From assembly GCA_028867595.1 (NCBI GenBank), contig JAGWGB010000012.1:1-39151 (forward strand): 39,151 nucleotides of DNA, given 5' to 3'. This DNA is from Nitrososphaerota archaeon (GTDB lineage: Archaea > Thermoproteota > Nitrososphaeria > Nitrososphaerales > Nitrosopumilaceae). The notes below the pieces were generated by a model, which was given only the letters and a program-made list of their open reading frames with translations, did not search any database and was not told the DNA's origin. This document shows positions 11,715-37,845 of this stretch, in pieces. A program made the position numbers and the translations under genes. Every line of letters begins with the position of its first letter. Position 1 is the first letter of the stretch.

Positions 11715-12791
11715 ATGGATTATCATCATTTTCATGGTAAGAATATTCCGCATATAGAAGTCAATCCCGATATGAAAATAGATGACCTTGTAGAAATCTA
11801 TTCCAGATCTGGTTATAATGCAAGACAGCTTGGAGAAGCTGCAAAACTCTTCCGTAAAATGATAGAGGATGATGCCACAATCTGCCTTACTATTGCTGGT
11901 GCAATGACACCAGTTGGCTTTGGTGGCCTTTTCAAGTCCCTTATAGAGAAGGGATTTGTGGATTGGATAATATCCACAGGTTCTAATCTATACCACGAGG
12001 ATCATTTTGCATGGAATTTGCCTGTAAAACAAGGACATTTTGAGGTAGACGACATGATTCTTTATCAAAAAGACATTGTCAGGATACGAGATGTATATAT
12101 CAAAGGTGAAGAGACGCTAAAAAAACAAGATAAGATTGTACAAAAAATGTTTGAAAATAATTCAATGGATAGACCGTTTACCACTGCCGAGTTTGCAAAT
12201 TGGATGGGCAAATATTCAAAAGAACACTCAAAGCATCCTGAAAAAAGTTTTGTAGTTTCTGCTTATGATTACGATGTTCCTCTCTACATATCTACGTTAA
12301 AAGATTCTTCATTGGCTCTTGATTTGGCTCCTCTGCGACTTGCCAATAAACAATTTTCACTAGATTTTGTTCGTGAAATAATTGAGCAGGCTGCAATTTT
12401 GTACAATTCAAAAAAGGCAGGAATTGTAGAGATAGGTGGCGGCGTACCCAAAAATACAGCACAACAGACGGGTCCTCTGTTAGACCAGATCTTGGGCCTG
12501 GGGCATGGAGGACAAAATTATATTATTCAGATAACTGATGCCAGGCCTGACACTGGTGGGTTATCAGGCGCTACTCTTCAGGAAGGCAAGAGTTGGGGCA
12601 AGGTAAAAGATTCTCATGAAGATGTCATTGTAGTTTACACAGATGCCACTATTGCGTTTCCAGTTTTGTGTTTGTATGCATTAAGCACTGAAAGCCCAAG
12701 AAAACCAAAACGCATCTACAAGAAATTAGGACAATATTACAAAGAATTGTCTGAAATGTATTTTGATAAAAAGAAATTATCTCAACGCTAA
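11715..12791 (+). CDS. Deoxyhypusine synthase-like protein (divergent paralogue)
   Basis: A 358-residue member of the deoxyhypusine synthase (DHS) family, NAD-dependent enzymes that transfer the aminobutyl group of spermidine. The Rossmann parts and the active-site lysine (K296 in SWGKV) are kept. The region that in true DHS reads GGGxxKHH is here GGGVPKNTAQQTGP, so the His pair is lost and the downstream loop is longer (LGLGHGGQNYI). That matches DHS-like enzymes of bacteria that act on other acceptors or make other polyamines. Substrate is therefore open. It is one of two family members in this region, with arginine decarboxylase between them. Confidence 0.85.
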   Translation: MDYHHFHGKNIPHIEVNPDMKIDDLVEIYSRSGYNARQLGEAAKLFRKMIEDDATICLTIAGAMTPVGFGGLFKSLIEKGFVDWIISTGSNLYHEDHFAWNLPVKQGHFEVDDMILYQKDIVRIRDVYIKGEETLKKQDKIVQKMFENNSMDRPFTTAEFANWMGKYSKEHSKHPEKSFVVSAYDYDVPLYISTLKDSSLALDLAPLRLANKQFSLDFVREIIEQAAILYNSKKAGIVEIGGGVPKNTAQQTGPLLDQILGLGHGGQNYIIQITDARPDTGGLSGATLQEGKSWGKVKDSHEDVIVVYTDATIAFPVLCLYALSTESPRKPKRIYKKLGQYYKELSEMYFDKKKLSQR

Positions 12792-12826
12792 TTGCATTTT
12801 CTTTTCTTCTTATACAAGAAATTATT

Positions 12827-13378
12827 TTAAAGAATTAAAACTGCAGCTGCAAAGACAGTAGTCCATCTGCCCTTTGAATCTCCAACCGCACTTTGAGTAA
12901 TATTTCGTGTTTTGTATATCTGACCTGATACCTTCCATTGTTGTCTTTTCTCATCCCAGTTTTTCTCTACATCAAATGGTATTCCAATAGATGATGCCAA
13001 CATTTGTGCTGCAATATCTTCAGCATAGTCTCCAGCTTCTTTTTCTGTTTCACCAAACGAATGATATTCAGATAGATATCCCCATCTTTTTCTGTCAGAT
13101 GGTTCTGCCAATCCTACCGAGGCCGCCATTAATCTATGTGGTTCGTTAGATTGTTGTCGTGCATATATTACGAACTGTACGCTACCAGGACGAATGAGCT
13201 TCAATCCCTCAGGACGGGGAATTATTTTTGCACCTGGAGGAAATATACTTGAAATTAATACCAAATTGGTATTTGGGATACCAGCATCTCTCAATGCATA
13301 TTCAAAGCTTGTAAGTTGATCTTGATGTACTCCCTTACCTTTGGTAAGGAATAATTTTTTTGGAACTAGGTCGAGCAT
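12827..13378 (-). CDS. pdaD: Pyruvoyl-dependent arginine decarboxylase
   Basis: The enzyme that turns arginine into agmatine, entry to archaeal polyamine synthesis. The proenzyme cuts itself at the Ser-Ser bond in LISSIFPPGA (S43-S44 with my start) to make the pyruvoyl group. The frame stays open to 13498, but the ATG at 13378 (MLDLVPKKLFLTKGKG) matches the family's N-terminus and follows a TATA-rich stretch; the extra 40 residues are unlike the family. 183 residues from this start. It lies between two DHS-family genes on the opposite strand. Confidence 0.92.
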   Translation of the reverse strand: MLDLVPKKLFLTKGKGVHQDQLTSFEYALRDAGIPNTNLVLISSIFPPGAKIIPRPEGLKLIRPGSVQFVIYARQQSNEPHRLMAASVGLAEPSDRKRWGYLSEYHSFGETEKEAGDYAEDIAAQMLASSIGIPFDVEKNWDEKRQQWKVSGQIYKTRNITQSAVGDSKGRWTTVFAAAVLIL

Positions 13379-13509
13379 GTTATCTTCTTTGTTTCCCAAA
13401 TGAACATTATTTAAAAATTGGTCTCTAATGCGTACATTACGTTTTAATTTTGAATGGTTGATTATATAACAATACAAGGAATTTATACCACAGATCAAAC
13501 TGTAATAGG

Positions 13510-14448
13510 ATGAGCAGTAAAGCTAGACCAGTACGAGATATCACGATAAAAAGCGATACTGATCTTCAAGATATTTTCAAACAGATGGCAGCGTCTGGCG
13601 GTTTTGAATCAAGAAATCTTTCTGATGGTCTTGAGATACTCACAACAATGATAAACGATAAACATTGTTTGAAATTCCTTTCATTTGTAGCGGCAATTAC
13701 ATCAACTGGCCTTCGTGGAATAATTGCAGATATGTTGAAAAATAAAATGTTTGATGTTGTTATAACTACATGTGGTGCACTAGATCACGATATCGCTAGA
13801 TATTTTTCAAATTATTTGGAAGGATCATTTACTCTTGATGATTCAGAACTTTTAAAGAAAAACATTCACAGATTAGGTAATGTACTTGTTCCCATGGATA
13901 GCTATGGACCAATAATTGAGGAAAAGATGCAGCAATTCTTGGAAGCAGCGTACAAATCAGGTAAAAAAGAAATGTCTACTGCAGACATTACAAGAATGAT
14001 AGGTGAAAATCTAGGAGAAGGATCATTCTTGTATTGGGCATACAAGAACAACATTCCAGTAGTTGTACCGGGGATAATGGATGGTGGAGTTGGTAGTCAG
14101 ATTTGGATGTTTACTCAAAAACATAGTGATTTTAAGATAAATGTTGCAGCAGACAGTGATCTATTATCTTCACTTATTTTCAAGGCAAAAAAATCGGGAG
14201 CTCTTATGCTTGGAGGAGGAATCTCAAAACACCATACACTTTGGTGGAATCAATATCGAGATGGTTTAGATTATGCGGTCTATATCACGACTGCACAAGA
14301 ATTTGATGGAAGTTTGAGCGGAGCTCTTGTAAGAGAAGCAATCTCTTGGGGGAAGGTTACTCAAAGTGCAAAGCAAACTACTATTCATGCGGAAATAACT
14401 ACTATCTTGCCATTCCTCTATTCTGCGCTTCTAGATAGAATAAAGTAG
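13510..14448 (+). CDS. dys: Deoxyhypusine synthase (canonical-like)
   Basis: A 312-residue DHS that uses NAD and spermidine to modify the lysine of archaeal aIF5A. It keeps the diagnostic LGGGISKHH (H241, H242), TAQEFDGSLSGA and active-site K282 in ISWGKV, so of the two family members here it is the one expected to be the true enzyme. No aIF5A gene is in the window. It is divergent from the arginine decarboxylase frame, with the start about 130 bp from the preferred decarboxylase start. Confidence 0.9.
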   Translation: MSSKARPVRDITIKSDTDLQDIFKQMAASGGFESRNLSDGLEILTTMINDKHCLKFLSFVAAITSTGLRGIIADMLKNKMFDVVITTCGALDHDIARYFSNYLEGSFTLDDSELLKKNIHRLGNVLVPMDSYGPIIEEKMQQFLEAAYKSGKKEMSTADITRMIGENLGEGSFLYWAYKNNIPVVVPGIMDGGVGSQIWMFTQKHSDFKINVAADSDLLSSLIFKAKKSGALMLGGGISKHHTLWWNQYRDGLDYAVYITTAQEFDGSLSGALVREAISWGKVTQSAKQTTIHAEITTILPFLYSALLDRIK

Positions 14449-14482: not shown

Positions 14483-16180
14483 TCAATAATAATGATGTGA
14501 TGGTCTCTGTATCTTTCCAAGCTTGTCAAAGTGATCATGCGGTTTGTTTCCTTTTGCATGTGAATGTGTAGTGCCATCCCCATGAGTATGTGTATACATT
14601 GCAGGTTGTTTCATAATAACTTCATCTACACGTAGAAGTAATGATGCAACGTCTGACGCTGTTTTTATTACTTGTTCTTTGACTATCAAAGGTTCAACAA
14701 TATGTTCAGAATACATTTCTTTCACTTTTCTTTCATTTGTGTCTATACCATACCAAGAATGAATTTTTCCGTTATTGTGCTCAGAATTTTTGCTTCTTAG
14801 TTGAACAAGCGCATCAATTACATTCATTCCAGAATTTCTAGCTATTGTTAATGGAATTTCCTCTAGGGCTTCAGCAAAATTTTGAATAACGGTTTGTTCT
14901 TTGCCCTCTATCAAAAGCGATTTTTTTCTTAGTTCATTTGCAATAATTATTTCAGTGGAACCTCCACCTGCCACTATTGATGGATGAGTAAAGAAATCTT
15001 TTAGGACAGTTATAGCATCGAGCACCGTACGATGATATTCATCTAACAGTCTCTTGGAATTTGCACGTAATAATATCGTGACTGATTTTGGGTTTTTGCA
15101 TCCTTCTGCGAATACCATTTTATCATCGCCTACAAATTTTTCATAGACTTTACCTGCAAAACCTAAATGTTCTTGGGTTATGTTATTCAGATCGTTTGTT
15201 ATCATACCGCCTGCAGCCTTTTCCAACCAATGTAGATCATTTTCTTTCACTCTACGAATAGATATCATGCCTGCCCTTGATAGATAATGCTGAGCTAGAC
15301 GGCTGATTCCCTTTTGACAGACTACAACATTTGCACCTGAATTAATTATCTTCTGAGTTTTTTCTTTCACGTCTTCATTTTCTTTTGAGATATATTGTTG
15401 CATTTCTTCTGGCGAATGGATGATAATTTCTGCATCAGTTTTTGTTCTCTCATTGTCAAGCTCTACATTAATTAGAAGAATTTTTGCATTCTTTATTATC
15501 CTAGGCATTGCAGAATTGTCAATTGTTTTGTCAATCACGATTCCTCGGACTAGTTGAATATCCGATGTATTTCCTGGTTTTTCTTCTATCTTAATGTCAT
15601 CTGTTTCAACTTTTTTATTTGCAAAATCTGCAATTGTGCAAAATGCATCAGTGACTAATTCTGCAATAGGCTTATCTTCACATAACATGGAGATAGATTT
15701 TGAATTCAGACATGTTTTTGCTAGATTGATCATTATTTCTTTATTCCTGTAACTTGATGATTTTGCAATTGATTTCACAATATCTAGTGCCATCTCACCA
15801 GCCTTTTTGTATCCTGCTTCAATGGTAGAAGGTGATATTCCTAGATCCAGCATTTTTTCTGCTTTTTCAAGAAGAGATCCAGCTAGAACAACTACCGATA
15901 TTGTTCCATCTCCTACTTCATTATCAACTGAATTTGATGCATCTATCATTACCTTAGCAGCTGGATGTTCAACATCGATTTTGCGCAATATGGTAGAACC
16001 ATTCTTGCTTAGGGTAACCTCGCCTAGAAGATCAATGTAGATTTTTTCAAATCCTCTTGGTCCAAATGATGTTTTGACAAGATCTGCAATTAATTTCCCA
16101 GCAAGTAGATTATATCTACGAGTTTCTTCCCCTACAGAAAATTGGGTTCCCTCACCAAGTAAATTATCGGTAGAACTCAT
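14483..16180 (-). CDS. Divergent thermosome-family chaperonin with His-rich C-terminus
   Basis: A 565-residue group II chaperonin subunit. Equatorial motifs are recognisable: SFGPRGFEKIYID, VGDGTISVVVLAG (D91) and VAGGGSTEIIIA preceded by VLDAITVL (catalytic Asp kept). The nucleotide-loop motif normally written NDGAT is KNGST here (Asp to N60), so ATP turnover may be altered. The last 38 residues carry eight histidines (H531, H533, H539, H541, H548, H550, H562, H563) in HTH, HSH and HDH pairs, unlike the usual Gly/Met-rich thermosome tail. It lies directly after ureD in the accessory operon, though a TATA-like element about 25 bp upstream suggests its own near-leaderless transcript too. A role in urease or nickel handling is inference. 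Confidence 0.85.
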   Translation of the reverse strand: MSSTDNLLGEGTQFSVGEETRRYNLLAGKLIADLVKTSFGPRGFEKIYIDLLGEVTLSKNGSTILRKIDVEHPAAKVMIDASNSVDNEVGDGTISVVVLAGSLLEKAEKMLDLGISPSTIEAGYKKAGEMALDIVKSIAKSSSYRNKEIMINLAKTCLNSKSISMLCEDKPIAELVTDAFCTIADFANKKVETDDIKIEEKPGNTSDIQLVRGIVIDKTIDNSAMPRIIKNAKILLINVELDNERTKTDAEIIIHSPEEMQQYISKENEDVKEKTQKIINSGANVVVCQKGISRLAQHYLSRAGMISIRRVKENDLHWLEKAAGGMITNDLNNITQEHLGFAGKVYEKFVGDDKMVFAEGCKNPKSVTILLRANSKRLLDEYHRTVLDAITVLKDFFTHPSIVAGGGSTEIIIANELRKKSLLIEGKEQTVIQNFAEALEEIPLTIARNSGMNVIDALVQLRSKNSEHNNGKIHSWYGIDTNERKVKEMYSEHIVEPLIVKEQVIKTASDVASLLLRVDEVIMKQPAMYTHTHGDGTTHSHAKGNKPHDHFDKLGKIQRPSHHYY

Positions 16181-16272: not shown

Positions 16273-17166
16273 TTATTGCGGACTATGAATTGGAGGTTCT
16301 ATTTTGTGTTCGATATTGGCACAAGTTCTGATAACATGAATTATAGACTCTGTCAAAGTGATTATTTCAGATGCTGAATCTGCAAGTATTCTCATAATTA
16401 TTCCACAGTCATTGGGCAGAGATGAACAACTCGCTAAAATGGATGTATTTTTTGTGGCTAGATTGATTTCTTCCATGATTCTTTCTGTTGAAATAGAGAT
16501 GCCAAGTATGTAAACAGTAGAAAAAGCACCTTTTCCTTCAAATACTGCCTCTAGATATGGCTTATCTTTATGGTTCAGGCTCATAACATCCGTGAAAAGA
16601 ATTTGGTCATTTCTGCAAGCTGAAGTACGAAGAAAACAGAGATCAAAGTCATATTTTTCTCCAGATGCAACACGACCTGCAGATATAATTTCAGAGTAGA
16701 TCAGTATCGCATTCTTGTCAACCTCAAGATTTACCTCTTGATAAAATCTTGATGATTTAAATGGAATAATCTGATGTGGAACAAATTCTAGATAGCTTCC
16801 TTCCTGACCATGTATGTTGATGTATTGCGAGGCATATCCATCTTCCATCTTGTAAATTTTGGTTGCAGATTGATTAGTGATTCTTCCTTTAGAATTTTTT
16901 CCCATGACGATATCAATTTTCTGTTCATCACCCTGTAAGATGCCTCCAGAAGATGACATCATGTAGATGTGTGCAAATTTTGGGTAATCCGAGTCTGGAT
17001 ACATGGCCTTTTGAATTAGAAATGGAGCTTTTGACATCAATGATTTTACATATGTTTTGGAATTTTTATCTAATTCAAGCTCCAATCTTATTGTACCATT
17101 TTGACCTGGCATTTTGGTTTCTTTATTTTTGAAATTTTTGAAGATGTCTGGAATATGATGACTCAT
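16273..17166 (-). CDS. ureD: Urease accessory protein UreD (UreH)
   Basis: A 297-residue UreD/UreH protein, the scaffold that binds apo-urease and recruits UreF and UreG for nickel loading. Family features include the ILQGDEQKIDI segment, ATKIYKMEDGYASQ (typical TxxxxKVYR-like turn) and LEFVPHQIIPFKSSRFYQ. ATG overlaps the ureG stop by ATGA (17163-17166), so translation is coupled. A 93-bp gap precedes the chaperonin gene. Confidence 0.92.
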   Translation of the reverse strand: MSHHIPDIFKNFKNKETKMPGQNGTIRLELELDKNSKTYVKSLMSKAPFLIQKAMYPDSDYPKFAHIYMMSSSGGILQGDEQKIDIVMGKNSKGRITNQSATKIYKMEDGYASQYINIHGQEGSYLEFVPHQIIPFKSSRFYQEVNLEVDKNAILIYSEIISAGRVASGEKYDFDLCFLRTSACRNDQILFTDVMSLNHKDKPYLEAVFEGKGAFSTVYILGISISTERIMEEINLATKNTSILASCSSLPNDCGIIMRILADSASEIITLTESIIHVIRTCANIEHKIEPPIHSPQ

Positions 17167-17828
17167 CTGATTCTATCCTTTTTGGCTATAGTTTTTTTGT
17201 CAAACAGTATTGATTTGATTATGTTTTCGGCAACATATTCTATACCCTCGCCAGTTTGGCAATTAACAAACACAAAGGGTTTTCCTTCTCGGATTTTTTG
17301 TGCGTCTCGCTTCATTATACTGATGTCTGCTCCTACATGTGATGCCAAATCAATCTTGTTGATCACAAGTAAATCGCTACTTTCTATTCCCAATCCACCT
17401 TTTCTTGGATATTTGTCACCACCTGCTACATCGACTATGTAAATGAAATAATCTGCAAGAGCCGGGCTAAAGGTAGTCATAACATTATCGCCACCACTTT
17501 CAATAATGATTAAATCAAGACTGGGATCTTTTTTTTCTATTTCGTCAATCACTGCTAAATTTATTGTGGGGTCTTCACGTATTGCAGTATGGGGACAACC
17601 TCCAGTAGCTATTCCTATAATCATGTTTTCAGGCATGACTTTAAGCTCTGTAGATAATACTCGTTGCATTCTTTCTGCATCTTCTTTTGATATAACATCA
17701 TTTGATATTATACAACATCTGTAGCCTTTTTCTATCAAAACCGGTACTATTCGTTCAATTAATCTAGTTTTCCCAGAACCTACCGGTCCACCAATTCCAA
17801 CTTTGGGTATTTTTCTATTTTTTGACAT
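17163..17828 (-). CDS. ureG: Urease accessory GTPase UreG
   Basis: The SIMIBI-class GTPase that delivers nickel to urease. P-loop GGPVGSGKT, the CPH nickel motif in GGCPHTAIRED, DLIIIESGG (Walker B region) and the guanine specificity motif NKID are all visible. The ATG at 17828 is chosen; an in-frame TTG directly before it (17831) would add one residue. About 221 residues, normal size. It follows ureF by 15-18 bp and overlaps ureD. Confidence 0.96.
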   Translation of the reverse strand: MSKNRKIPKVGIGGPVGSGKTRLIERIVPVLIEKGYRCCIISNDVISKEDAERMQRVLSTELKVMPENMIIGIATGGCPHTAIREDPTINLAVIDEIEKKDPSLDLIIIESGGDNVMTTFSPALADYFIYIVDVAGGDKYPRKGGLGIESSDLLVINKIDLASHVGADISIMKRDAQKIREGKPFVFVNCQTGEGIEYVAENIIKSILFDKKTIAKKDRIR

Positions 17829-17845
17829 CAAAAATCACTTCAAAT

Positions 17846-18547
17846 CTATGTTATGAACATCTTAGAACTGTCATGCTCGTGAATCATTTGGAAAATATCT
17901 GTAAGTGGTGTCAGTTGCCAAATATTGTCAAGTGATTCTTTCTCAATATTTTTTGAAATGCTATTAATCTTGACTGAAAGTAGTGTAAGAATTTTTTGAC
18001 CACTAATATGATCAATTATTCCCAATCTAATTGCTGCTGCAATAATGTTTTGACTGAATGAATAAAGCATCATCCTTATTCCACTCTCAGGTGGAATTCC
18101 AAATAGATTTGCTGCCATGGCATAACAGACAGGATGCGTTCCAGGAGTTTTATTTGATAATATTTTCTTTTGAAACTGCTTTGCTATTATGTTTTCTTTT
18201 TTATCAGACGCCATTTGGATTACACAATTCAAGATTTGTGAACCAGATCTGACAGAGGCATTCCGTACTTCTTTTATTAGTCTCATTGTGTAGAATCGAT
18301 TATCTATTTCAACTAGTTCTTCAATATTTTTATTTTCTATGGCATTTATTGCTGCTAGAAAAATCATGCAGTCACAAGGTACTAGCTGAAATTCTATTTG
18401 TCGTTCAATGAAACTTGTAACATCTTTATCATTTCTGATTCGCTGATGCTTTACAAGTGATTCCAATCCATTAGACATTCCAAACATGCCTGACGGAAAG
18501 AAAGAATCTGCCAATTGCATTAAAAAAAATTCATGATCAGTGTTCAT
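17846..18547 (-). CDS. ureF: Urease accessory protein UreF
   Basis: An all-helical activator that works with UreD and gates UreG GTPase activity. The N-terminal MQLADSFFPSGMFGMSNGLES matches the family's LQLxDSxxPxGxFxxSxGLE pattern. The frame reaches a GTG at 18562, but the ATG at 18547 (MNTDHEFFLMQL) is a better start and overlaps the end of ureE by 11 bp. About 233 residues. Confidence 0.92.
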   Translation of the reverse strand: MNTDHEFFLMQLADSFFPSGMFGMSNGLESLVKHQRIRNDKDVTSFIERQIEFQLVPCDCMIFLAAINAIENKNIEELVEIDNRFYTMRLIKEVRNASVRSGSQILNCVIQMASDKKENIIAKQFQKKILSNKTPGTHPVCYAMAANLFGIPPESGIRMMLYSFSQNIIAAAIRLGIIDHISGQKILTLLSVKINSISKNIEKESLDNIWQLTPLTDIFQMIHEHDSSKMFIT

Positions 18548-19037
18548 GTATATACATTCCACGTTGAGGTTGAAAAATCTGTTCTTCTACCATAAATTCA
18601 AAGTCATGCATGATTCCAGAAAAGAGTTTTTTGAACACCTCGACTTCAGAATCCACATGTATAGGAAAAGAGAGAGTATCGTCGTTTATCATGATTGGTT
18701 TATGCCTGTTTCCTATAATATGTCCAAGAGTGACTAGATTAACAGGGTTATCCTTTAGATTCTTTATTTTTATCGAAATTACCTTTTCAGGTAATTGTTC
18801 AACTATAACGAATTTTTCTTGATCTGCCATTATAACATCACCGTGATAGAGTTGAGAATTCAAAATTAGACCTATGTCAGTTCCAAGGTCGGTCGTTTTC
18901 CTAATCCTACCTCTTTCCAGCTCATGACGCAGGATTTTCATCCTCTCACATTTTTTTTGAGATTCCATTTGTTTGAATTTGTTCATTAACTCTTTATCAT
19001 GAAAAATATTTCCAACTATTGTTGTAATAGTGAGCAT
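18537..19037 (-). CDS. ureE: Urease accessory protein UreE (no His-rich tail)
   Basis: A 166-residue nickel metallochaperone. The N-terminal domain holds ERGRIRKTTDLGTDIGL; the C-terminal domain holds LVTLGHIIGNRHKPI, where the GN.H segment contains the dimer-interface metal-site histidine. It ends GMYIHEH with only two late histidines, so it lacks the long His-rich tail of enterobacterial UreE. First gene of the leftward accessory operon, with a TATA-like AAAATATAAT (19061-19070) about 25 bp before the ATG. Confidence 0.92.
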   Translation of the reverse strand: MLTITTIVGNIFHDKELMNKFKQMESQKKCERMKILRHELERGRIRKTTDLGTDIGLILNSQLYHGDVIMADQEKFVIVEQLPEKVISIKIKNLKDNPVNLVTLGHIIGNRHKPIMINDDTLSFPIHVDSEVEVFKKLFSGIMHDFEFMVEEQIFQPQRGMYIHEH

Positions 19038-19131: not shown

Positions 19132-19434
19132 ATGATGCTCACTCCAAGAGAAATAGACAAACTCTATATTTTTATGACAGCAGAAGTTGCACGAAGAAGA
19201 AAATCGAGAGGGTTGAAGCTTAACTACGTAGAAGCGTTGGCATTGATTTCAGACCACATAGTTGAAGGAGCAAGAGACGGAAGATCAGTGTCGGAATTAA
19301 TGAGTTCTGGAAGGAAGGTGTTAACAAGAGATGATGTTTTACCTGGTGTACCTGAGTTAATTAAGACGGTTCAGACTGAAGCAACATTTGAAGATGGAAC
19401 CAAACTTGTTACGGTTCATGATCCTATCGTATAG
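19132..19434 (+). CDS. ureA: Urease gamma subunit UreA
   Basis: A 100-residue structural subunit. Recognised by [35 protein letters not shown] and the highly conserved [12 protein letters not shown], ending VHDPIV. Separate UreA, UreB and UreC indicate the three-subunit prokaryotic enzyme. Tandem ATG codons at 19132 and 19135 leave the first residue uncertain. The ureB start is two bases past its stop. A paralogue of this protein lies at 28384-28764. Confidence 0.96.
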
Positions 19435-19436
19435 GT

Positions 19437-19808
19437 ATGATTCCTGGAGAATATTTCATAAATGATGTTCCCATTATTGCAAATAAAGGCAGAAAGACAA
19501 TAAAGATCACAGTTAGCAATTCCGGAGACAGACCAATACAAGTAGGTTCTCATACGCATTTTTTTGAAACCAACAAAGCTCTAGTGTTTTCTAGAGAGAA
19601 AGCTTATGGTTTTCGGCTGAATGTTCCCGCAGGAACATCAGTAAGGTTTGAACCTGGGGATACAAAAGAAATAGAACTTACAGAATATGTCGGACAAAAA
19701 ATAGTATATGGATTTAACAGTCTTGTTAATGGCAAACTCTCCACTAGAAAACAAATTGCAATCAAGAAAGCACGAAAGCTAGGGTTCAAGGATAGTGATC
19801 AGAAATGA
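19437..19808 (+). CDS. ureB: Urease beta subunit UreB
   Basis: A 123-residue beta subunit. IPGEYF, the [12 protein letters not shown] motif, [18 protein letters not shown] and the [12 protein letters not shown] region match the family closely. ATG overlaps nothing upstream (2-bp gap to ureA) and its stop overlaps the ureC ATG as ATGA. Confidence 0.96.
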
Positions 19809-21517
19809 CATTGATCATTCCCAGAAAACAATACGTTGATCTTTATGGACCTACTAAAGGAGATAAAATTAGACTTGCTGACACGGATCTGATAATTGAA
19901 ATCGAAAAAGATTTTCAGACATATGGAGATGAGATAGTTTTTGGCGGAGGCAAAAGTGCCAGAGATGGAATGGGTCAGGCAAGTGGGGTTACTAGTAGAA
20001 ATGCTCTTGACCTAGTAATAACAAATGCAGTTATCATAGATCCAATTCTAGGTATTGTCAAAGCAGATATCGGTATCAAAAATGGATTAGTAGTTGGCAT
20101 TGGAAAGGCAGGCAATCCAAACATCATGGACGATGTGGATATGATAATATCAGCAAATACCGAAGTGATTGCAGGAGAACACACGATATGTACTCCTGGG
20201 ATAATTGATACACATATTCATTTTATTGCTCCTCAACAAGCAATAGAAGCAATCTGTAGCGGCACTACAACCATGATTGGTGGTGGTACAGGACCTGCTG
20301 ATGGTACTAAGGCAACAACATGTACTCCTGGTCCATGGAATATTCACAGAATGCTTGAGGCTCTCGATGAATTTCCTCTAAATTTTGGATTGTTGGGAAA
20401 AGGGAATGATTCTAGGGAACCTGCCCTAATGGAACAGATTGCTGCAGGAGTCTGCGGTTTGAAATTACATGAGGACTGGGGTTCTACTCCTGCTACTATT
20501 GATGCCGCTCTGCGTGTTGCCGATAAAACTGACACTCAAGTGGCCATTCATACAGATACATTAAACGAATGTGGTTTTGTTGATGACACAATCAATGCAA
20601 TAGATGGAAGAACAATTCACACATATCACACAGAAGGCGCAGGTGGAGGACATGCCCCAGACATTATGAAAATAGCTGGTGAGAAAAACATTCTTCCTTC
20701 CTCAACAAATCCAACGAGACCATTTACCGTTAATACATTAGAAGAACATCTTGACATGATGATGGTTTGCCATCATCTAAATCCCTCTGTAAGAGAAGAC
20801 GTTGCATTTGCAGAATCTAGAATTAGGGGCGAGACTATTGCTGCAGAAGATGTGTTGCATGATATTGGCGCTCTAAGTATGTATTCTTCTGATAGTCAAG
20901 CCATGGGTAGAGTTGGGGAAGTAAGTATCAGATTGTGGCAGACTGCCGATAAAATGAAAAAGACGGTTGGTCGCCTAGCAGAAGAGACAGGAGATAATGA
21001 CAACATACGTGTTAAAAGATATCTTGCAAAACTTACCATCAATCCAGCAATAACACATGGCATTTCTAGTTATGTAGGTTCTTTGGAGACAGGTAAATTG
21101 GCTGATATCGTCATGTGGTCACCCGAGTTTTTTGGTGTAAAACCTAAACTCGTAATAAAAGGAGGATTTGTAGCCTATTCTTTGATGGGGGATCCAAATG
21201 CATCTATTCCCACTCCAGAGCCAGTATATTATCGCCCCATGTTTGGTGCATTTGGACAAGCGATGTATTCTACCTCAGTGACCTTCACTTCAAAATTAGC
21301 AATAAGAAACGGTTTGGCAAAAAAATTAGGTTTGAAAAAGAGACTACTCCCAGTCAAAAATTGCAGAAAGATAACCAAGAAAGATATGGCTTACAACAAC
21401 TTGTTGCCGAAAATAGAGATTGATCCTGAAACTTACAAAGTTTTGGTCGATGGAAAGCTTGCCACAACTGAAGCTTCAAAAAAACTCTCCATGGCTAGAC
21501 TGTATCATTTGTTCTAG
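19805..21517 (+). CDS. ureC: Urease alpha (catalytic) subunit UreC
   Basis: A 570-residue dinickel amidohydrolase that splits urea into ammonia and carbamate. All catalytic residues are present, each three positions later than in Klebsiella urease: nickel ligands H137 and H139 (DTHIHF), carbamylated K220 (GLKLHEDW), H249 and H275, D363 (SSDSQAMGR), and the flap histidine H323 in MVCHHL. An apparently active enzyme. In an ammonia oxidiser it supplies ammonia from urea. The ATG overlaps the ureB stop. Confidence 0.98.
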
Positions 21518-21570: not shown

Positions 21571-21825
21571 ATGTCACCAGTCAAGACACGCGATGACGTA
21601 GAAAAAGCTTCAAGGAAAGCAGTAGAGTCACTCTATGGCAATGAAATACAAGATTTCAAGATAAGAGAGCTCTTTCCATTACCAGAAAAAGGTCCACAAG
21701 ACTCTTGGGATGTACAAACGACTTTTCTGCTAAACAAGTTGAAGCATACAGTAGATTTGGTTATTCAGATGAAAGATGGGCATGTAACCAATGCAAGACT
21801 GATTGATACAATGGTTCCTTTGTAG
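21571..21825 (+). CDS. 84-residue protein downstream of ureC, unknown
   Basis: A small soluble protein with an N-terminal helix (RDDVEKASRKAVESLYG) followed by a predicted beta-rich part (IQDFKIRELFPLP...WDVQTTFLL...HTVDLVIQMKDGHVTNARLI). It looks like a small alpha/beta fold; no family recognised. It has its own AT-rich promoter (21535-21555) and a palindrome just upstream, and a T-rich tract after the stop (21838-21860). Position after ureC suggests, but does not prove, a link with urea use. Confidence 0.65.
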   Translation: MSPVKTRDDVEKASRKAVESLYGNEIQDFKIRELFPLPEKGPQDSWDVQTTFLLNKLKHTVDLVIQMKDGHVTNARLIDTMVPL

Positions 21826-22012: not shown

Positions 22013-22534
22013 ATGCCTAGTCAAGGGTATGGAACCATAGGACTAAAGCCAGCTATCATCTCCAAATTACAGAAAGCTACGGATGAGTACTATCCAGGTA
22101 TGTTTCTTCCAAGTGCACTGATAATTATCATGAATGAGATAAAACGACAGTACTATACAATAGGAATGTATAATTTCAAGATAGATTTTTCTGGCAGATA
22201 TACGTCTCTGACAGTCAGATCTGATGTAAAGAAATGGTTTGAAGAGAATTATGAAGCACTAAGAGAAAAATATGAGGAGAAATACAAAGCAAACAACTTT
22301 ACAAAATTTGCAAGCATCTTTATGCTCAACATGTTTGAATCCAAGGCAGCATCTCAAAATAATGTAATCAAGCTCAAAGAATCAGACTTTACTTGGTTGA
22401 TGTGGGAATACGAGCAACGAAAAAAAGAATATGAGACAAAGTATGGTGTTAAAACATTCGAACGTTTCTCTGATGTATTTCTTAAAGACCTGTTAGAACG
22501 GGTTAGCTCTGCAAAAAAAATACTGACCTTATAG
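22013..22534 (+). CDS. Protein with internal duplication, unknown
   Basis: A 173-residue protein. Two similar stretches are visible: residues ~76-107 (LREKYEEKYKANNFTKF then ASIFMLNMFESK) and ~138-168 (RKKEYETKYGVKTFERF then SDVFLKDLLERV). Both follow KYExKY-x4-F-x2-F-x3-F-x4-L/M-x-E, which suggests a duplicated helical motif, possibly DNA- or self-binding. Not assigned to a family. TATA-like TTTTAAAATAA about 20-28 bp upstream of the ATG fits a leaderless start. Confidence 0.65.
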   Translation: MPSQGYGTIGLKPAIISKLQKATDEYYPGMFLPSALIIIMNEIKRQYYTIGMYNFKIDFSGRYTSLTVRSDVKKWFEENYEALREKYEEKYKANNFTKFASIFMLNMFESKAASQNNVIKLKESDFTWLMWEYEQRKKEYETKYGVKTFERFSDVFLKDLLERVSSAKKILTL

Positions 22535-24328: not shown

Positions 24329-25915
24329 TCATATTGCCCCACGTTTGCTACCACCAGCATCTACTACTCTCATATCAATAGGATTGACCCACTCTTTCAC
24401 GTCAGCACCGCTAACTACATCCATGTCATTTGGAATCAAGTACACCACATCATGTCGTGGTGGCGTTCTTCTTTGGGTTGCCAAACTTGTCAATATGAAC
24501 ACTGGTAATGACACCAATGGTGGAATGATCGTATCAAGACCTGCGTAAGCTAGATACGGGCTACCAGTTGGTGCATTTGTTATGAGGAAGAATAAGAACA
24601 GTCTTAGTCCAGTACCTACCGCAATGGATGCTACTGCTCCTGAAGCTGTGGATTTCTTCCAGTATGTTCCAAAAACTAGAGGGACCAAACATCCTGCTAG
24701 CACAATGTCAAATGCCAATATGAGATAGATTCCAGGCCTTGGAATCAGATCACCTAGAGCAAAAGCGGTAAAGAACATAGGTATTACAAGAAGCCGCGTA
24801 GCAAGTAGCAGCTGCCTATCATTGAGTTTCTGTTTTTTCATAATTCTTAAAATATTGCGTTGCAAAAAGTTCCTTGACAGTACACTGGCAATAGCCAAAG
24901 TTCCTCCATTTGCAGTAGACATGCCACAACTTATTGTACTTACCAACATCAGAATACCTATTACCATTGGCGCGTGTTTTATTGCTACAATTGGAAATAG
25001 CGTATAGGAATCAGTAAGACCTGGTTCTAGGCTTAGTCCAATTATTCCTACCATTGTAGTTGGAATCAAAAATATTAATGTCAGACCTGCTCCAAAATAG
25101 CAACTCTTTTGTGCAGTCCTTCCACCATCTGCTGCAAATACTCTTTCCATGAAATCTAATGCAACAATATCTCCTACTCCTAACGAGATTATTCCTGCCC
25201 AATTGGGTAGTGCACCATTATTGATATCATATAATCCAGACATATCCATGAAGTTACCCGGAACATTTGCAACTATAGATTCCAAGCCTCCCGGAATTGG
25301 TGACCATGGACTAATAAAGTACAGAAATCCTGCCCAAAATCCAATTATTGCAAGATAAATATGGAAAATATCTGTATAAGCACAGGAAAACAGGCCACCG
25401 AAATAAGTATACAGTAATACTACAGCAGTTGAAATTAACATTGCATAAACTAGAGGTATTCCAAGTAAGACAGATAAGATATATCCACTTGCACCGAGAT
25501 TTCCCGCAACAAGAACAATGAAACTGATTGCCATCAAAGTTCCTGACATTACTTCAGTTGTGTTTCCATATCTCCTGTAATAGAAATCTGCGAGTGTGAT
25601 CATAGACATTCTGTTAAATCTTTTTCCAAAGAATGCACCAGTTAAAACTAGACAGACAGCCAGACCAAGCGGAATCACTGCACCTCCCCAGAATCCAAAT
25701 TGATAGGTTAACGAAACATTTCCAAGCGAAGCATTTCCATCAACTGCTTCAGACACCAGCATTGTTCCGATAAAAAATAATGGCAAACTTTTACCAGCAA
25801 CAATGTATCGTTTGCTGCTTCTTTTAACAAATTTTACTGCAAGAACTCCAATTGCAGCGGTTGCAGCTACAAATGCTAGAACCACTATAGGATACGCAAT
25901 TGGAATATCTCCCAT
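24329..25915 (-). CDS. Sodium:solute symporter (SSS), urea-transporter-like
   Basis: A 528-residue symporter with about 13 membrane helices. SSS hallmarks include LADFYYRRYGN in the cytoplasmic loop after helix 2, GGLFSCAYTDIFH, and STISCGMSTANGGTLAIASVLSRNF. Ammonia-oxidising archaea with urease commonly carry a DUR3-like member of this family as urea transporter, and its place beside ureABC and the ureohydrolase supports that, though substrate is inferred from context. The gene is preceded by a TATA-like AATATATAATT (about 25930-25942) and a 13-bp palindrome at 25968. Confidence 0.88.
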   Translation of the reverse strand: MGDIPIAYPIVVLAFVAATAAIGVLAVKFVKRSSKRYIVAGKSLPLFFIGTMLVSEAVDGNASLGNVSLTYQFGFWGGAVIPLGLAVCLVLTGAFFGKRFNRMSMITLADFYYRRYGNTTEVMSGTLMAISFIVLVAGNLGASGYILSVLLGIPLVYAMLISTAVVLLYTYFGGLFSCAYTDIFHIYLAIIGFWAGFLYFISPWSPIPGGLESIVANVPGNFMDMSGLYDINNGALPNWAGIISLGVGDIVALDFMERVFAADGGRTAQKSCYFGAGLTLIFLIPTTMVGIIGLSLEPGLTDSYTLFPIVAIKHAPMVIGILMLVSTISCGMSTANGGTLAIASVLSRNFLQRNILRIMKKQKLNDRQLLLATRLLVIPMFFTAFALGDLIPRPGIYLILAFDIVLAGCLVPLVFGTYWKKSTASGAVASIAVGTGLRLFLFFLITNAPTGSPYLAYAGLDTIIPPLVSLPVFILTSLATQRRTPPRHDVVYLIPNDMDVVSGADVKEWVNPIDMRVVDAGGSKRGAI

Positions 25916-27268: not shown

Positions 27269-28387
27269 ATGGGAATGGAATTCTATGGAGATTCATACAA
27301 AGGCAATGACGAACCAATTTTTGTGGGCATTCCTACGTTCTTGAAATTGCCTTGGATAAGAAGTAAGGCAGAGTTAGAAAAAGTAAGACCAGATATTGCA
27401 ATAATAGGAGAACCTTTTGATTTTGGAACAACCATCAGACCAGGTGCAAGATATGGACCTAGAGCTATAAGAGCTGCATCTACAGTACCGTCTCCACCAT
27501 ATGAGCATTTCAACATTGAAACAGGAGTTGATCCTTTTGGTGTATTCAGAACAGTCGATTATGGTGATGTAAACATCTCACCAGGCGATGTAGTAGAATC
27601 GCATAGAAGAATGACTGATAAAGTTAAAGAAGTTTTAGACATCGATGGCATCCCAGTCATGCTTGGGGGCGATCACTCCATTACTTTTGCAAATGTAAGG
27701 GCTTTTGCAAAGAAATACAAAAACATTGGAATGATCCACATCGATACCCACGCTGACTGCGCTCCACAAGGACTATGTGGCTTCAAATACGATCATGGTG
27801 CACACATCAGACGAATTATGGAACTTGGCTGCTTGAAGGGCAAGAACTATACTTTGATAGGACCTCGAGGATACTGGCCTGGCCCAGATCTCTACAAATG
27901 GATGGCAGACCAAGACTTTCAGTGGTTTACCATGCTTGATGTAGAAGAGCTAGGAATAGATCAAATTGCAAAAGAAGCTGCAGACAGAGCAAATGACAAT
28001 GTAGATGCAGTTTACATTAGTTGGGATATTGACACATTTGATCCCGCCTACGCTCCAGGAACAGGAGAACCAGAACCCAACGGCCTGACCTCTAGAGAAG
28101 GAATGAGATTGATGAGATTGCTATCAACCTCATTTGACCCAGACAAATTCGCCTTTGATCTAGTAGAAGTAGCTCCAAACTACGATGTAAGTGATGGCAA
28201 TTCCTACAATGGAGGAATCACTTCTGGCCTTGCAAATCGCCTGATAGTGGAACTCATGGCTGGACTATCTCTTACAAAGAAAGGACTACAAAATGGCAGC
28301 CCAGTAAGGCCAAAACTCTACCGTGGCAAAAACCACACGTATGACTTTGGCAACGGACCAAAAGCAAAAATTCCGAAAAGAAATTGA
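27269..28387 (+). CDS. Agmatinase/arginase-family ureohydrolase
   Basis: A 372-residue binuclear metallohydrolase that cleaves a guanidino group and releases urea. Metal ligands are complete: H136 (GGDHS), D159, H161, D163 (HIDTHAD) and D253, D255 (WDIDTFDP). PGTGEPEPNGLTSREG follows the agmatinase pattern. Compared with typical agmatinases of about 300 residues it is longer, mainly by a longer N-terminal part, an insert containing GPRGYWPGPDLY (199-210) and a basic C-terminal tail. Agmatine is the likely substrate given the arginine decarboxylase nearby; guanidine or another guanidino compound is possible, because nickel-dependent guanidine hydrolases belong to this family. The stop overlaps the start of the UreA-like gene. 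Confidence 0.9.
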   Translation: MGMEFYGDSYKGNDEPIFVGIPTFLKLPWIRSKAELEKVRPDIAIIGEPFDFGTTIRPGARYGPRAIRAASTVPSPPYEHFNIETGVDPFGVFRTVDYGDVNISPGDVVESHRRMTDKVKEVLDIDGIPVMLGGDHSITFANVRAFAKKYKNIGMIHIDTHADCAPQGLCGFKYDHGAHIRRIMELGCLKGKNYTLIGPRGYWPGPDLYKWMADQDFQWFTMLDVEELGIDQIAKEAADRANDNVDAVYISWDIDTFDPAYAPGTGEPEPNGLTSREGMRLMRLLSTSFDPDKFAFDLVEVAPNYDVSDGNSYNGGITSGLANRLIVELMAGLSLTKKGLQNGSPVRPKLYRGKNHTYDFGNGPKAKIPKRN

Positions 28388-28764
28388 TCAGCATCCAAGC
28401 CTTGGTAAAAGGTGAGCCAGACATTACTCCTTTTACCAAGCTTTTTGAGTTTTCAGATCAGGATGAACCTATTTTTTTAAATGTAATAGAAATGGTGAGA
28501 GACAAACTATCTAGAAAACTTCAACTAAATGTTCATGAGGCTTTATTGGCATATTATGATTATTTGGTAAGCGAGATCCGAGCAAAAAAATCAGATTCAG
28601 ACATAATAGAAAACTCATCAAAGATTCTAACACGTGATGATGTTTTAATTGGAGTGCCTGAAACTCTAAGAGAAATTACATTCAATATTACAGTCGATAA
28701 TTTTCTAAAACGAACAATTCAGTTTGTCAAACCTATTCCAGTTGTAGACTATACAATGGTATAG
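28384..28764 (+). CDS. Urease-gamma (UreA)-like protein coupled to ureohydrolase
   Basis: A 126-residue protein whose residues ~40-110 resemble UreA: KLQLNVHEALLAYYDYLV versus [16 protein letters not shown], and ILTRDDVLIGVPETLREI versus [18 protein letters not shown]. It has about 17 extra residues at the N-terminus and a longer C-terminal end (TIQFVKPIPVVDYTMV). The start is TTG at 28384 overlapping the ureohydrolase stop (TTGA), so the two are translationally coupled. There is no UreB or UreC with it. UreA has no catalytic residues, so a structural or assembly role is likeliest: partner of the ureohydrolase, or a bridge to urease or its maturation factors. The role is unknown. Confidence 0.8.
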   Translation: MISIQALVKGEPDITPFTKLFEFSDQDEPIFLNVIEMVRDKLSRKLQLNVHEALLAYYDYLVSEIRAKKSDSDIIENSSKILTRDDVLIGVPETLREITFNITVDNFLKRTIQFVKPIPVVDYTMV

Positions 28765-34826: not shown

Positions 34827-36269
34827 TCATTTCTTACCAGTACAATCAGTAATTGTAAGTATGATAGCTTCTCCACCAGAACACACGCCAGGAGGGAGGT
34901 GAACCCAGTATGTTCCATGAGATGCATCTTTTGACGCTGCAAGCGTTATGATGATAATTGCAGAGTCGTTAGTTGACATAGTCTCAGATTTTGGATAGAG
35001 CGAGACGTATACTCCGGGATGATCATACATGTTGGCATCATGCATGAGTTGTACATAGTTTGTAATGTTTACCTCGTTTGAATATGTGGTATTTGTCCAA
35101 CTACGAAATGAACTGATTGAGATTTCATAAGATATGGTACCATTGTGCCCTGGTTCTAGGACAAAGTTTTGCGTGTTTGGAAATTTGGTATAGTTATAGA
35201 CGCCATAGAACCCTGTATAGTTGACTGTTTGCCCTCTTGCCTGGAAGGCTGCGAGTGGGCACATGAAAAAACCTGGAGCCCCAGCTGTTGCATATTGATT
35301 AGTGATTTTGGATGCGCAGGAAGGGATACCCTGTGAGACTTGACTTGTCTGGTTTATCGCTGCAAGTTGCAGCTGTTTAGGTAGTACTATGACCCAACCC
35401 AAAAGTTGAGGAGTGGTATGCCATATGAACTTGCCAGGCTTTGAAAAGGTGTACTCAAAACTCTGTCCGCTGTACAGGTAAGCTGGAAACCGCATAGCTC
35501 CAATATGACCACTAGTTGGAAATCGGGCAGAATTTGAGAATGCAATGTCAGCGTTATCTGGAGGAGTAAAAAACGAGATTGGGAAAGGGGTATTGTTCAC
35601 CCATCTTACGGTGTTGTTTGTTCCAATTGTTACTGTAAGATTTTCCGACTTGCCTTCGCATGATTGGCAAGAAGGCAGGTCTTGTTCAGTAATAGATACA
35701 GTAGATATCAGTGTAGAATGTTGTGTTGTTTTGTCAAGATATGTAGCAAGATGACTCCATCCACGTTCTAGAATCTTTGATATGCTAGAAAGATTTACGC
35801 ATGCAGGCTTGCCAGTTTCATTGTTTACAAGTAGGTATTGGTCATAGCCGCATTCGACCTCACCAATAGTTTCTCCCACCTTGAGTTGTTGTAATGGCGG
35901 TATATTGCACCTGGGTCCATTTGCAGACGATACAATTGATGGTGCTTGGTCGTTGAGATAATAATACCACCAAACATCGTAATTACTTTGATTTACGCAG
36001 GTCCAAGCTTTCAACAAATTGTTCGAGGTATAGTGGACCATCTCAATTTGTTTCATTTCCATCCATTGTGCTCCTTTGTATTGATAATATCCTGCCCAAT
36101 CACTTTTCATCTGTTCTTTGGTTACGTGTAAACCTGGAAGTGCATAGCACGGTGCTTTTGGCCAGTCAGGATTTAATCCTCCACAAAATGCATTAACAGT
36201 ATGAAATGTAACTGCAAAAACTAGAAACAAACCAATAACTGCAAGTATTGTAAGATGGAGAGTTTTCAT
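34827..36269 (-). CDS. Secreted multi-domain protein with cupredoxin-like domain
   Basis: A 480-residue exported protein (signal peptide about residues 1-27). An ECGYDQYLLVNNETGKPACV...ILERGW stretch (139-171) resembles residues 289-320 of the next gene. Residues ~208-297 look cupredoxin-like (LTVTIGTNNTVRWVNNTPFPISFF...YTFSKPGKFIWHTTP), but the usual first His and Cys copper ligands are not visible. The C-terminal part (~313-480) matches the 240-residue protein at 37842 (GFYGVYN, NFVLEPGHNGTISYE, HGTYWVHLPPG.C). Many cysteines suggest an oxidised exterior. Function unknown. Confidence 0.75.
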   Translation of the reverse strand: MKTLHLTILAVIGLFLVFAVTFHTVNAFCGGLNPDWPKAPCYALPGLHVTKEQMKSDWAGYYQYKGAQWMEMKQIEMVHYTSNNLLKAWTCVNQSNYDVWWYYYLNDQAPSIVSSANGPRCNIPPLQQLKVGETIGEVECGYDQYLLVNNETGKPACVNLSSISKILERGWSHLATYLDKTTQHSTLISTVSITEQDLPSCQSCEGKSENLTVTIGTNNTVRWVNNTPFPISFFTPPDNADIAFSNSARFPTSGHIGAMRFPAYLYSGQSFEYTFSKPGKFIWHTTPQLLGWVIVLPKQLQLAAINQTSQVSQGIPSCASKITNQYATAGAPGFFMCPLAAFQARGQTVNYTGFYGVYNYTKFPNTQNFVLEPGHNGTISYEISISSFRSWTNTTYSNEVNITNYVQLMHDANMYDHPGVYVSLYPKSETMSTNDSAIIIITLAASKDASHGTYWVHLPPGVCSGGEAIILTITDCTGKK

Positions 36270-36297
36270 TTTTCAGCTTTCCGAAAATTTTGACAGG

Positions 36298-37845
36298 TTA
36301 TTGTAACTTCATCTCTGTATAGCTCATTCCTCTTACCTCTACTCCTACAAGTTCATCTTCTCCCCTCGCGCAAGAATGATTCAGCATAGTAAACATGCCC
36401 TTTGAAAAATCAGACGAGTTTACCTCCTTTGCTGAATATCCTACTGCAAGTGGGTAATAGAAACATAGAGGCATAGGTATTGACTGGTCGTAAAAACCAG
36501 TGGCATTTGGAAGAGGCCTGATCAGATAAGTCACTGTAAAGTTAGATCCTACTGGATAATTTGCATGATCGATTGTTTTGGGAAATGCCGTGATGCTAAA
36601 TGAGTTTGTATAGTCCTTACCTTGAGTTACTCCGAAGCTGTTAGCATCTCCTTCATAGTTCAGATCATTTATGTGAAATTGCATAGTTTCATTCCGTGGC
36701 CAATTTACACCATCTTGAATCACACCATAAGGCCTGATGACAGTATAAGTCAGTTTCACACATGAAGTAGCATTTGGCTGCATCAAAAGAACTGGAAACA
36801 TCATTGCGCGGTAGTTTGGAGAAAGTATCGCAGTTCCATTACATGAAGAATTTACATCCAAGTTTGATGTGGCAACCTCTCTAGTCCAACCTCTTTCCAT
36901 CAATTTCTGTGCGGTATTAGTTGTTACACATGCTGGAGAGCCATCTTCTAACTTGAAAATCAGTACAAGATTAGTATTGCATTGTATTTTATTTGCTGCA
37001 ATTCCTGATTTGAATTGCTTCAAGGGAGAACTCACAAGTATTGGCATGCCATATGATGTAGGTCCACCTCCCGTAGCAATATTGTCACAGTTGTGCGAAT
37101 CCACTGTAGGATAGTATGCCGATATCACCTTCGTTGTTTTCATGTCTATTGTTACCATCGCATCCCATCCATGATCACAAGGCATTTTGGAGCTGGCTGA
37201 TGACGCTTTCAGATTAACAATTGCATACTGCCAGTTGCCTGGCTGGTTATTTGCAGTCATGAATCCCATTGTTACAAATTGCCAGTCATGCGACCAGCTT
37301 TGTATCCCCGGAATAGATGTCGCAATATCAATCAGTTCCTGATTTCTAGATGGCGTTAGCGTAGGTACCTTTGTGATAGGGTTTATCGTAAATGAGAATG
37401 GTGATGAGACATTTTCCTCCATGTTTGATTGGTTGGTTTCATTCCATATCAAATAGTGAAATGTTACAGTTGCGTTTGCTACACCTGCCTCTTTTGCTAC
37501 ATAGGCAAGATCTAGGTAAGGACTGGTTGCAGTTATTTTTTGTCCGGGATTTATTTTTTGCTCTACCATATCGGTTGTACAAGTAACGTTGTTTATTCTG
37601 GTCAAAATGTGGTTGTCAAAAGTTGCTGAGAATGACGCTTGACATGGTCCATGTTCTACGAATATAGGATTTGTAGAATTATTGACAAGAGTTGCATTCA
37701 TCTTGAATGTGTGGCCAATTATTATGGTAGCAGGAATGGTCTTGATGTCTTGAATCTCTATGCCACTGTCTGCTTTTGCTAAGTTTGGACATATTGATAC
37801 AAAAAGAATCGAAATTGCAATTATGGAAAGGAGTAGAATTTTCAT
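36298..37845 (-). CDS. Secreted cysteine-containing protein, unknown
   Basis: A 515-residue exported protein (signal peptide 1-25). The first ~150 residues look beta-sandwich-like (DIKTIPATIIIGHTFKMNATLVNNSTNPIFV). The middle has a GWDAMVTIDMKTTKVISAYYP segment. The module QCNTNLVLIFKLEDGSPACV...KLMERGW (289-320) recurs in its neighbour. The C-terminal part is Cys- and Asn-rich. About 28 bp separate it from the previous gene, and its start overlaps the stop of the next one, so all four are likely one operon. Confidence 0.75.
   Translation of the reverse strand: MKILLLSIIAISILFVSICPNLAKADSGIEIQDIKTIPATIIIGHTFKMNATLVNNSTNPIFVEHGPCQASFSATFDNHILTRINNVTCTTDMVEQKINPGQKITATSPYLDLAYVAKEAGVANATVTFHYLIWNETNQSNMEENVSSPFSFTINPITKVPTLTPSRNQELIDIATSIPGIQSWSHDWQFVTMGFMTANNQPGNWQYAIVNLKASSASSKMPCDHGWDAMVTIDMKTTKVISAYYPTVDSHNCDNIATGGGPTSYGMPILVSSPLKQFKSGIAANKIQCNTNLVLIFKLEDGSPACVTTNTAQKLMERGWTREVATSNLDVNSSCNGTAILSPNYRAMMFPVLLMQPNATSCVKLTYTVIRPYGVIQDGVNWPRNETMQFHINDLNYEGDANSFGVTQGKDYTNSFSITAFPKTIDHANYPVGSNFTVTYLIRPLPNATGFYDQSIPMPLCFYYPLAVGYSAKEVNSSDFSKGMFTMLNHSCARGEDELVGVEVRGMSYTEMKLQ

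Follow-up and report, generated by a model that had tools for sequence, protein, structure and literature searches.

Why should an archaeal chaperonin with a histidine-rich tail be encoded directly behind the urease accessory genes? The question is raised by a window of 39,151 nucleotides, the whole stretch of DNA analysed here, from an archaeon of the Nitrosopumilaceae (assembly GCA_028867595.1, contig JAGWGB010000012.1). The chaperonin, here called His-CPN, was considered in the first-pass annotation as a folding chamber or nickel reservoir dedicated to urease maturation. The features on which the argument rests are as follows.

14483..16180, minus strand: His-CPN, His-tailed group II chaperonin of 565 aa (PF00118, 498.5 bits; own clade)
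14486..14593, minus strand: conserved His-rich C-terminal tail, residues 530-565 (invariant residues; dN/dS 0-0.13)
15017..15019, minus strand: codon of D388, equivalent in the family alignment to the catalytic Asp D386 of Mm-cpn
16001..16003, minus strand: codon of N60, in the alignment column of the NDGAT Asp of thermosomes
16273..19037, minus strand: ureD, ureG, ureF and ureE, 5' of His-CPN
19132..21517, plus strand: ureA, ureB and ureC
21571..21825, plus strand: X84, conserved module protein of 84 aa (57/80 AGM loci)
22013..22534, plus strand: X173, conserved module protein of 173 aa (45/80 AGM loci)
24329..25915, minus strand: SSS-family sodium:solute symporter (PF00474; close to His-CPN or AGM in most loci)
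27269..28387, plus strand: AGM, arginase-family ureohydrolase of 372 aa (PF00491, E 1.7e-79)
28384..28764, plus strand: UreAL, urease-gamma-like protein (PF00547, E 3e-9)

A separate chaperonin clade with a conserved tail

The open reading frame of His-CPN starts with ATG, and its PF00118 match spans residues 31-525 and profile positions 1-489 of 490 (E 2.5e-149), the full-length Cpn60_TCP1 domain of group II chaperonins. The minus-strand gene order is ureE-ureF-ureG-ureD-chaperonin, with 92 nt between ureD and His-CPN. Both the domain match and this order confirm the earlier description of a group II chaperonin after ureE-F-G-D. UreE (18537-19037) is itself divergent, its N-terminal Pfam domain scoring below its cut-off.

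Further thermosome genes had been predicted elsewhere in the genome, and two were found on other contigs (627 bits each, with Gly/Met/Pro tails), which are 66% identical to each other and about 44% identical to His-CPN. Phylogenetic analysis placed 65 His-CPN orthologues in a single clade (support 100/100) separated from the canonical thermosomes by 0.97 changes per site. His-CPN thus shares with thermosome alpha/beta the full-length PF00118 domain and the GPxG and GDGT nucleotide motifs, the latter with Asp91 kept in 57/57 orthologues, but it is an accessory protein of a separate clade, with a His-rich rather than Gly/Met tail and with D60, and in many lineages also D388, altered. Grouping with the canonical subunits of the class and a Gly/Met-type tail, the marks of a housekeeping thermosome, are both absent. 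The curated cut-off of TIGR02339 is missed (530.7 versus 671.1 bits), while NF041082 and NF041083, whose cut-offs are lower, are passed. The His-CPN core has diverged faster than the canonical one, core identity between families f1 and f3 being 48.8% for His-CPN versus 68.8% for canonical thermosomes. Beyond the class, one match was obtained in the phylum (G416, a partial match), in which the His tail is absent.

The final 38 residues of His-CPN, MYTHTHGDGTTHSHAKGNKPHDHFDKLGKIQRPSHHYY, contain 8 His arranged as HTH, HSH, HDH and HH, in place of the Gly, Met and Pro of the two thermosomes of the host, and the initial claim of an eight-His HxH tail unlike normal thermosome tails is borne out. 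The consensus of the tail is THxHxDGxxHxHxxGxxxHxHF...GxxQRxxHHYY-COOH. Invariant in all orthologues with complete tails are H531, H533, H539, H541, H548, H562, G536, G555, Q558 and R559, whereas H550 and H563 are kept at 93-94% and either terminal Tyr at 94%. Since six His together with G536, G555, Q558 and R559 are invariant across complete orthologues, the conservation of the tail is far beyond chance. Columns conserved at 98% or more make up 28% of the tail, compared with 8-20% of the other His-CPN domains. The dN/dS of the tail (0-0.13) and of the core (0.06-0.20) are low, also in the lineages lacking catalytic Asp, indicating that the genes are maintained and not decaying. The conservation of the tail, which the first-pass annotation had proposed to check, therefore stands, with its C-terminal end nearly fixed, and the tail is specific to the His-CPN clade.

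Distribution with AGM and with urease

In a census of 300 Nitrososphaeria genomes, the whole His-CPN, its 76-residue C-terminus, UreC and AGM were used as queries. The whole-protein query scored four candidates per genome, and the C-terminus query added eleven carriers; the carrier count rests on the C-terminus query plus G238, whose gene runs off the contig before the tail. His-CPN was detected in 68 genomes, AGM in 72 and ureC in 108. AGM accompanies His-CPN in 67/68 carriers (Fisher 1e-59, Jaccard 0.92; Jaccard for ureC 0.57), and the one carrier without it, G193, has His-CPN at a contig end. Five genomes have AGM without His-CPN (G272, G184, G291, G037 and G112). Contig breaks fall where His-CPN would lie in G272 and G184, and the AGM of G291 is just a fragment where a contig ends, but G112 is nearly complete and appears truly to lack His-CPN while retaining the AGM module. 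Among 34 closed genomes, the His-CPN set and the AGM set are identical (nine genomes), whereas ureC is present in 17.

His-CPN was not detected in 44 of the 108 ureC genomes, 4 of which have AGM, mostly at contig ends; urease is therefore made without His-CPN. Within six genera, the presence of His-CPN tracks AGM, not urease. Counted among ureC-positive genomes as both genes/chaperonin only/AGM only/neither, the figures are 11/0/0/13 in g7, 7/0/0/7 in g23, 7/0/0/3 in g27, 2/0/0/6 in g9, 4/0/0/1 in g4 and 1/0/0/1 in g11. The proposed dedication to urease maturation finds no support in this distribution, in which His-CPN and urease part within the same six genera. It had also been reasoned that urease-less relatives carrying the His-tailed gene would speak against a urease role. 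Four carriers without detected ureC (G231, G255, G265 and G276) point weakly that way, but urease-less carriers are unproven because all four are fragmented assemblies.

The gene neighbourhood agrees with the census. In the nine closed carriers, His-CPN lies 1.6-8.6 kb from AGM throughout, while the closest ureC copy is found at 2.6 kb in two of them and at 15.8-2159 kb in the other seven. Adjacency to ure genes is found mainly in the genus of the window and in a few other genera. For instance, in G079, a closed genome of the window's genus (L039:7307-8923), the ureD, ureG and ureC beside His-CPN have decayed to fragments, whereas His-CPN, AGM, UreAL and the transporter are intact, and a second, intact urease cluster lies 115 kb away (L225).

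Urease was thus rejected as the main partner of His-CPN by distribution and neighbourhood. A role as a urease-maturation chaperonin, active in the folding of urease or in nickel supply to UreEFGD, would agree with the position of His-CPN directly after ureEFGD here and in close relatives of the host, with the presence of ureC in 64/68 carriers and with a tail that could suit nickel. We consider it unlikely, given that many of the ureC genomes without detected His-CPN belong to the carriers' own genera, that ureC is remote in most closed carriers, that His-CPN outlasts decayed urease genes in G079 and that the ureC-ureE gap elsewhere holds another chaperonin.

This other chaperonin calls for a distinction. 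Abby et al. (2018; PMC5797428) described an Hsp60 homologue that is conserved in urease loci in Nitrosocaldus and Nitrososphaerales but that Nitrosopumilales lack. In our data, a second chaperonin family without a His tail occupies the gap between ureC and ureE (ureABC-x-ureEFGD; L092:11684-13237, L216-L224) in 29/300 genomes, all Nitrosocaldus-like or Nitrososphaeraceae, and its position and taxa suggest that it is the published Hsp60. Its members score 831-1107 bits to the query from their own family and 127-152 bits to the His-CPN family, and several genomes hold both chaperonins. Like His-CPN, the published Hsp60 belongs to the chaperonin family and has its gene close to those of urease in ammonia-oxidising archaea, but identity of the two was rejected, as His-CPN follows ureD, bears the His tail and is separated by the low scores between families. 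This keeps two chaperonins from being mistaken for a single urease-associated Hsp60.

The ureohydrolase module

The recurring neighbours of His-CPN are the SSS symporter, AGM, UreAL, X84, X173 and often a TPR protein. The usual order in Nitrosopumilaceae is chaperonin, SSS, (TPR), X173, X84, AGM, UreAL, with urease farther off, and a NicO nickel transporter is nearby in some loci only. Linkage of SSS and an 'agmatinase' has already been noted in one clade (PMC11131427), and no paper joining His-CPN to SSS and AGM was found within the open-licence PMC literature.

AGM belongs to the arginase family, and all six metal ligands (H, D-H-D, D-D) are kept in 86-87 of 87 homologues. Its closest solved relatives are guanidinobutyrase and guanidinases. 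The nickel-dependent guanidinase GdmH of N. inopinata, likewise of the arginase family with six metal ligands, defines a guanidinase signature of Thr105, His222 and Trp313 in its own numbering (PMC11410670). AGM, as placed by alignment, shares the Thr and His but has Glu for the diagnostic Trp in 86/87 homologues and Gln in one, and a guanidinase by the published signature was therefore ruled out. AGM is also unlikely to be the housekeeping agmatinase, because the genome has two other arginase-family genes.

The start codon of UreAL overlaps the stop codon of AGM. Its AF2 model (pLDDT 93) finds urease gamma subunits as the best PDB matches in Foldseek (E 5e-6), so that its urease-gamma fold is assigned with confidence, and UreAL is possibly a subunit or a docking protein. 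X84 is predicted to adopt a cystatin-like fold (AF2 pLDDT 94.5), although the fold search gave no confident relative, and X173 had no Pfam match.

In haloarchaea (L203 Halonotius, L204 Haloglomus and L205 Natrinema), an AGM homologue of about 55% identity lies beside an SSS symporter, with no His-tailed chaperonin within the fetched flanks. These pairs support the view of importer and ureohydrolase as the core, with His-CPN as an addition to it in ammonia oxidisers. Together with G112, they also show that the AGM family does not always need His-CPN. In L203, the one such locus read, a PhoU-like ORF lies between the AGM homologue and the symporter.

Hydrolysis residues and a possible role in metal handling

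The nucleotide loop of His-CPN reads TLSKNGSTIL, with N60 where 11/11 alignable canonical thermosomes have Asp. The predicted replacement of the NDGAT Asp thus proved correct, and alignment to the host's other thermosomes upheld both this change and the contrast in tails; N60 is one of several replacements at the position. Among 57 orthologues, residue 60 is H in 26, D in 22, N in 6 and S in 3, non-Asp in 35/57. D388 is intact in the His-CPN of the window but replaced by N or S in roughly half the orthologues. One or both of D60 and D388 are absent in 46/65 orthologues while core and tail stay under purifying selection, which is new; both are kept in 19/65. The combinations follow lineages: H60/N388 in a large Nitrosopumilaceae clade (30 sequences), D60/S388 in g23, N60/D388 in the window's genus and S60/D388 in g5, with both Asp kept in several lineages, including most Nitrososphaeraceae outside g23. 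The tree requires at least four changes of D60/D388 state, not necessarily all of them losses.

A substitution of the catalytic Asp has consequences in a related protein. Mm-cpn D386A binds ATP without hydrolysing it, stays open and largely fails in complementation in vivo (PMC5019054). ATP-driven lid closure of a double ring is accordingly predicted to fail in many His-CPN orthologues. A permanently closed, His-lined cage was accordingly dropped as an explanation, given that this group II mutant stays open. The same findings bear on the view of His-CPN as an ordinary ATP-driven folding chaperonin for AGM and UreAL, whose tail would capture clients or contribute to the chemistry of the cavity and not bind metal. 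The GDGT Asp, kept throughout, and the lineages with both catalytic Asp would agree with it. So would precedent, as the chaperonins MmoG and MimG are dedicated to di-iron monooxygenase operons. These resemble His-CPN as chaperonin paralogues encoded with one metalloenzyme but belong to group I, and to our knowledge no His tail has been reported for them. Folding as the main function is nevertheless quite unlikely, since catalytic Asp is absent in two large lineages, a loss that blocks the folding cycle in Mm-cpn (PMC5019054), and since the H-x-H spacing is typical of metal sites.

A loss of hydrolysis could be tolerated if His-CPN were a third subunit in mixed rings with the two canonical thermosomes, adding a His-lined patch to a common chamber. 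Archaeal chaperonin rings can be hetero-oligomeric, and canonical subunits are encoded in the same genome. With about 42% identity to canonical subunits in general and an accessory distribution, His-CPN is very unlikely to act in this way.

A metal-handling role for His-CPN is reasonable, because the tail is conserved, selected and clade-specific and because the change in the ATP loop belongs to a broader loss of residues needed for hydrolysis. Thermosome C-termini point into the central cavity. Those of His-CPN, with about eight His per subunit, may there bind Ni, Mn or another transition metal and help in loading or holding AGM, a dinuclear metalloenzyme, perhaps with UreAL as well. In the lineages without the Asp, His-CPN would stay open with ATP bound, as a scaffold or holdase that donates metal, and would not cycle as a folding cage. 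The module (SSS importer, AGM, UreAL, X84 and X173, with His-CPN) would serve nitrogen acquisition: a guanidino compound may enter by SSS, AGM would release urea and urease would yield ammonia. We thus favour, at close to even odds (about 0.48), a group II chaperonin specialised for the metal handling of the ureohydrolase module, often as a non-hydrolysing scaffold; metal binding, client, oligomeric form and substrate are what we infer within this reading. Points against it are the AGM loci without His-CPN in G112 and the haloarchaea, the lineages that keep both catalytic Asp and the presence of NicO near some loci only; moreover, His-CPN and AGM could occur together because they were inherited or transferred as one island, without being direct partners. 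A bolder proposal is doubtful: a scaffold that donates metal and does not cycle, with hydrolysis residues changed at two positions in different lineages, would mature a new ureohydrolase family with a urease-gamma-like partner and so open an unrecognised guanidino-to-ammonia route.

The tail may instead serve a metal reservoir or buffer without specific client, its link with AGM reflecting metal demand or inheritance of an island. The invariant His tail, the missing hydrolysis residues and the faster divergence of the core would all fit, and mycobacterial GroEL1 offers a parallel, as an accessory chaperonin with a His-rich tail whose role is considered to lie in metal homeostasis and not in folding (PMC10170517). 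GroEL1 differs from His-CPN in being a group I protein of monomeric or low oligomeric form, which handles copper, has an unrelated tail sequence and lacks a ureohydrolase module. The His-rich C-terminus of Helicobacter pylori GroES/HspA, with its nickel and urease role, is likewise that of a chaperonin-system protein, but of a group I co-chaperonin, and group II chaperonins work without GroES. A general reservoir should also be retained alongside other metalloenzymes or in genomes that lack AGM, which is not the case for His-CPN, and conservation of the Gln-Arg pair and of the terminal Tyr-Tyr comes close to that of the His, which suggests a specific contact. We regard a clientless reservoir as rather unlikely.

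If the favoured reading of metal handling for the module is true, a group II chaperonin has retained a tail that binds metal but abandoned the ATPase behind the folding cycle of its family. The evidence suggests that a chaperonin has become an aid to metal handling in a new pathway of nitrogen use. The module would then be likely to widen the range of nitrogen substrates open to ammonia-oxidising archaea, a group for which a published survey saw no known guanidine-degradation genes (PMC11410670).

Two other parts of the window may be recorded. Positions 34827-37845 hold two adjoining proteins with WING-49 domains (NCBIfam) and no other assignment. Adjoining His-CPN, positions 11715-14448 encode two deoxyhypusine synthases and a pyruvoyl-dependent decarboxylase, and these genes occur in several Nitrosopumilaceae loci as well.
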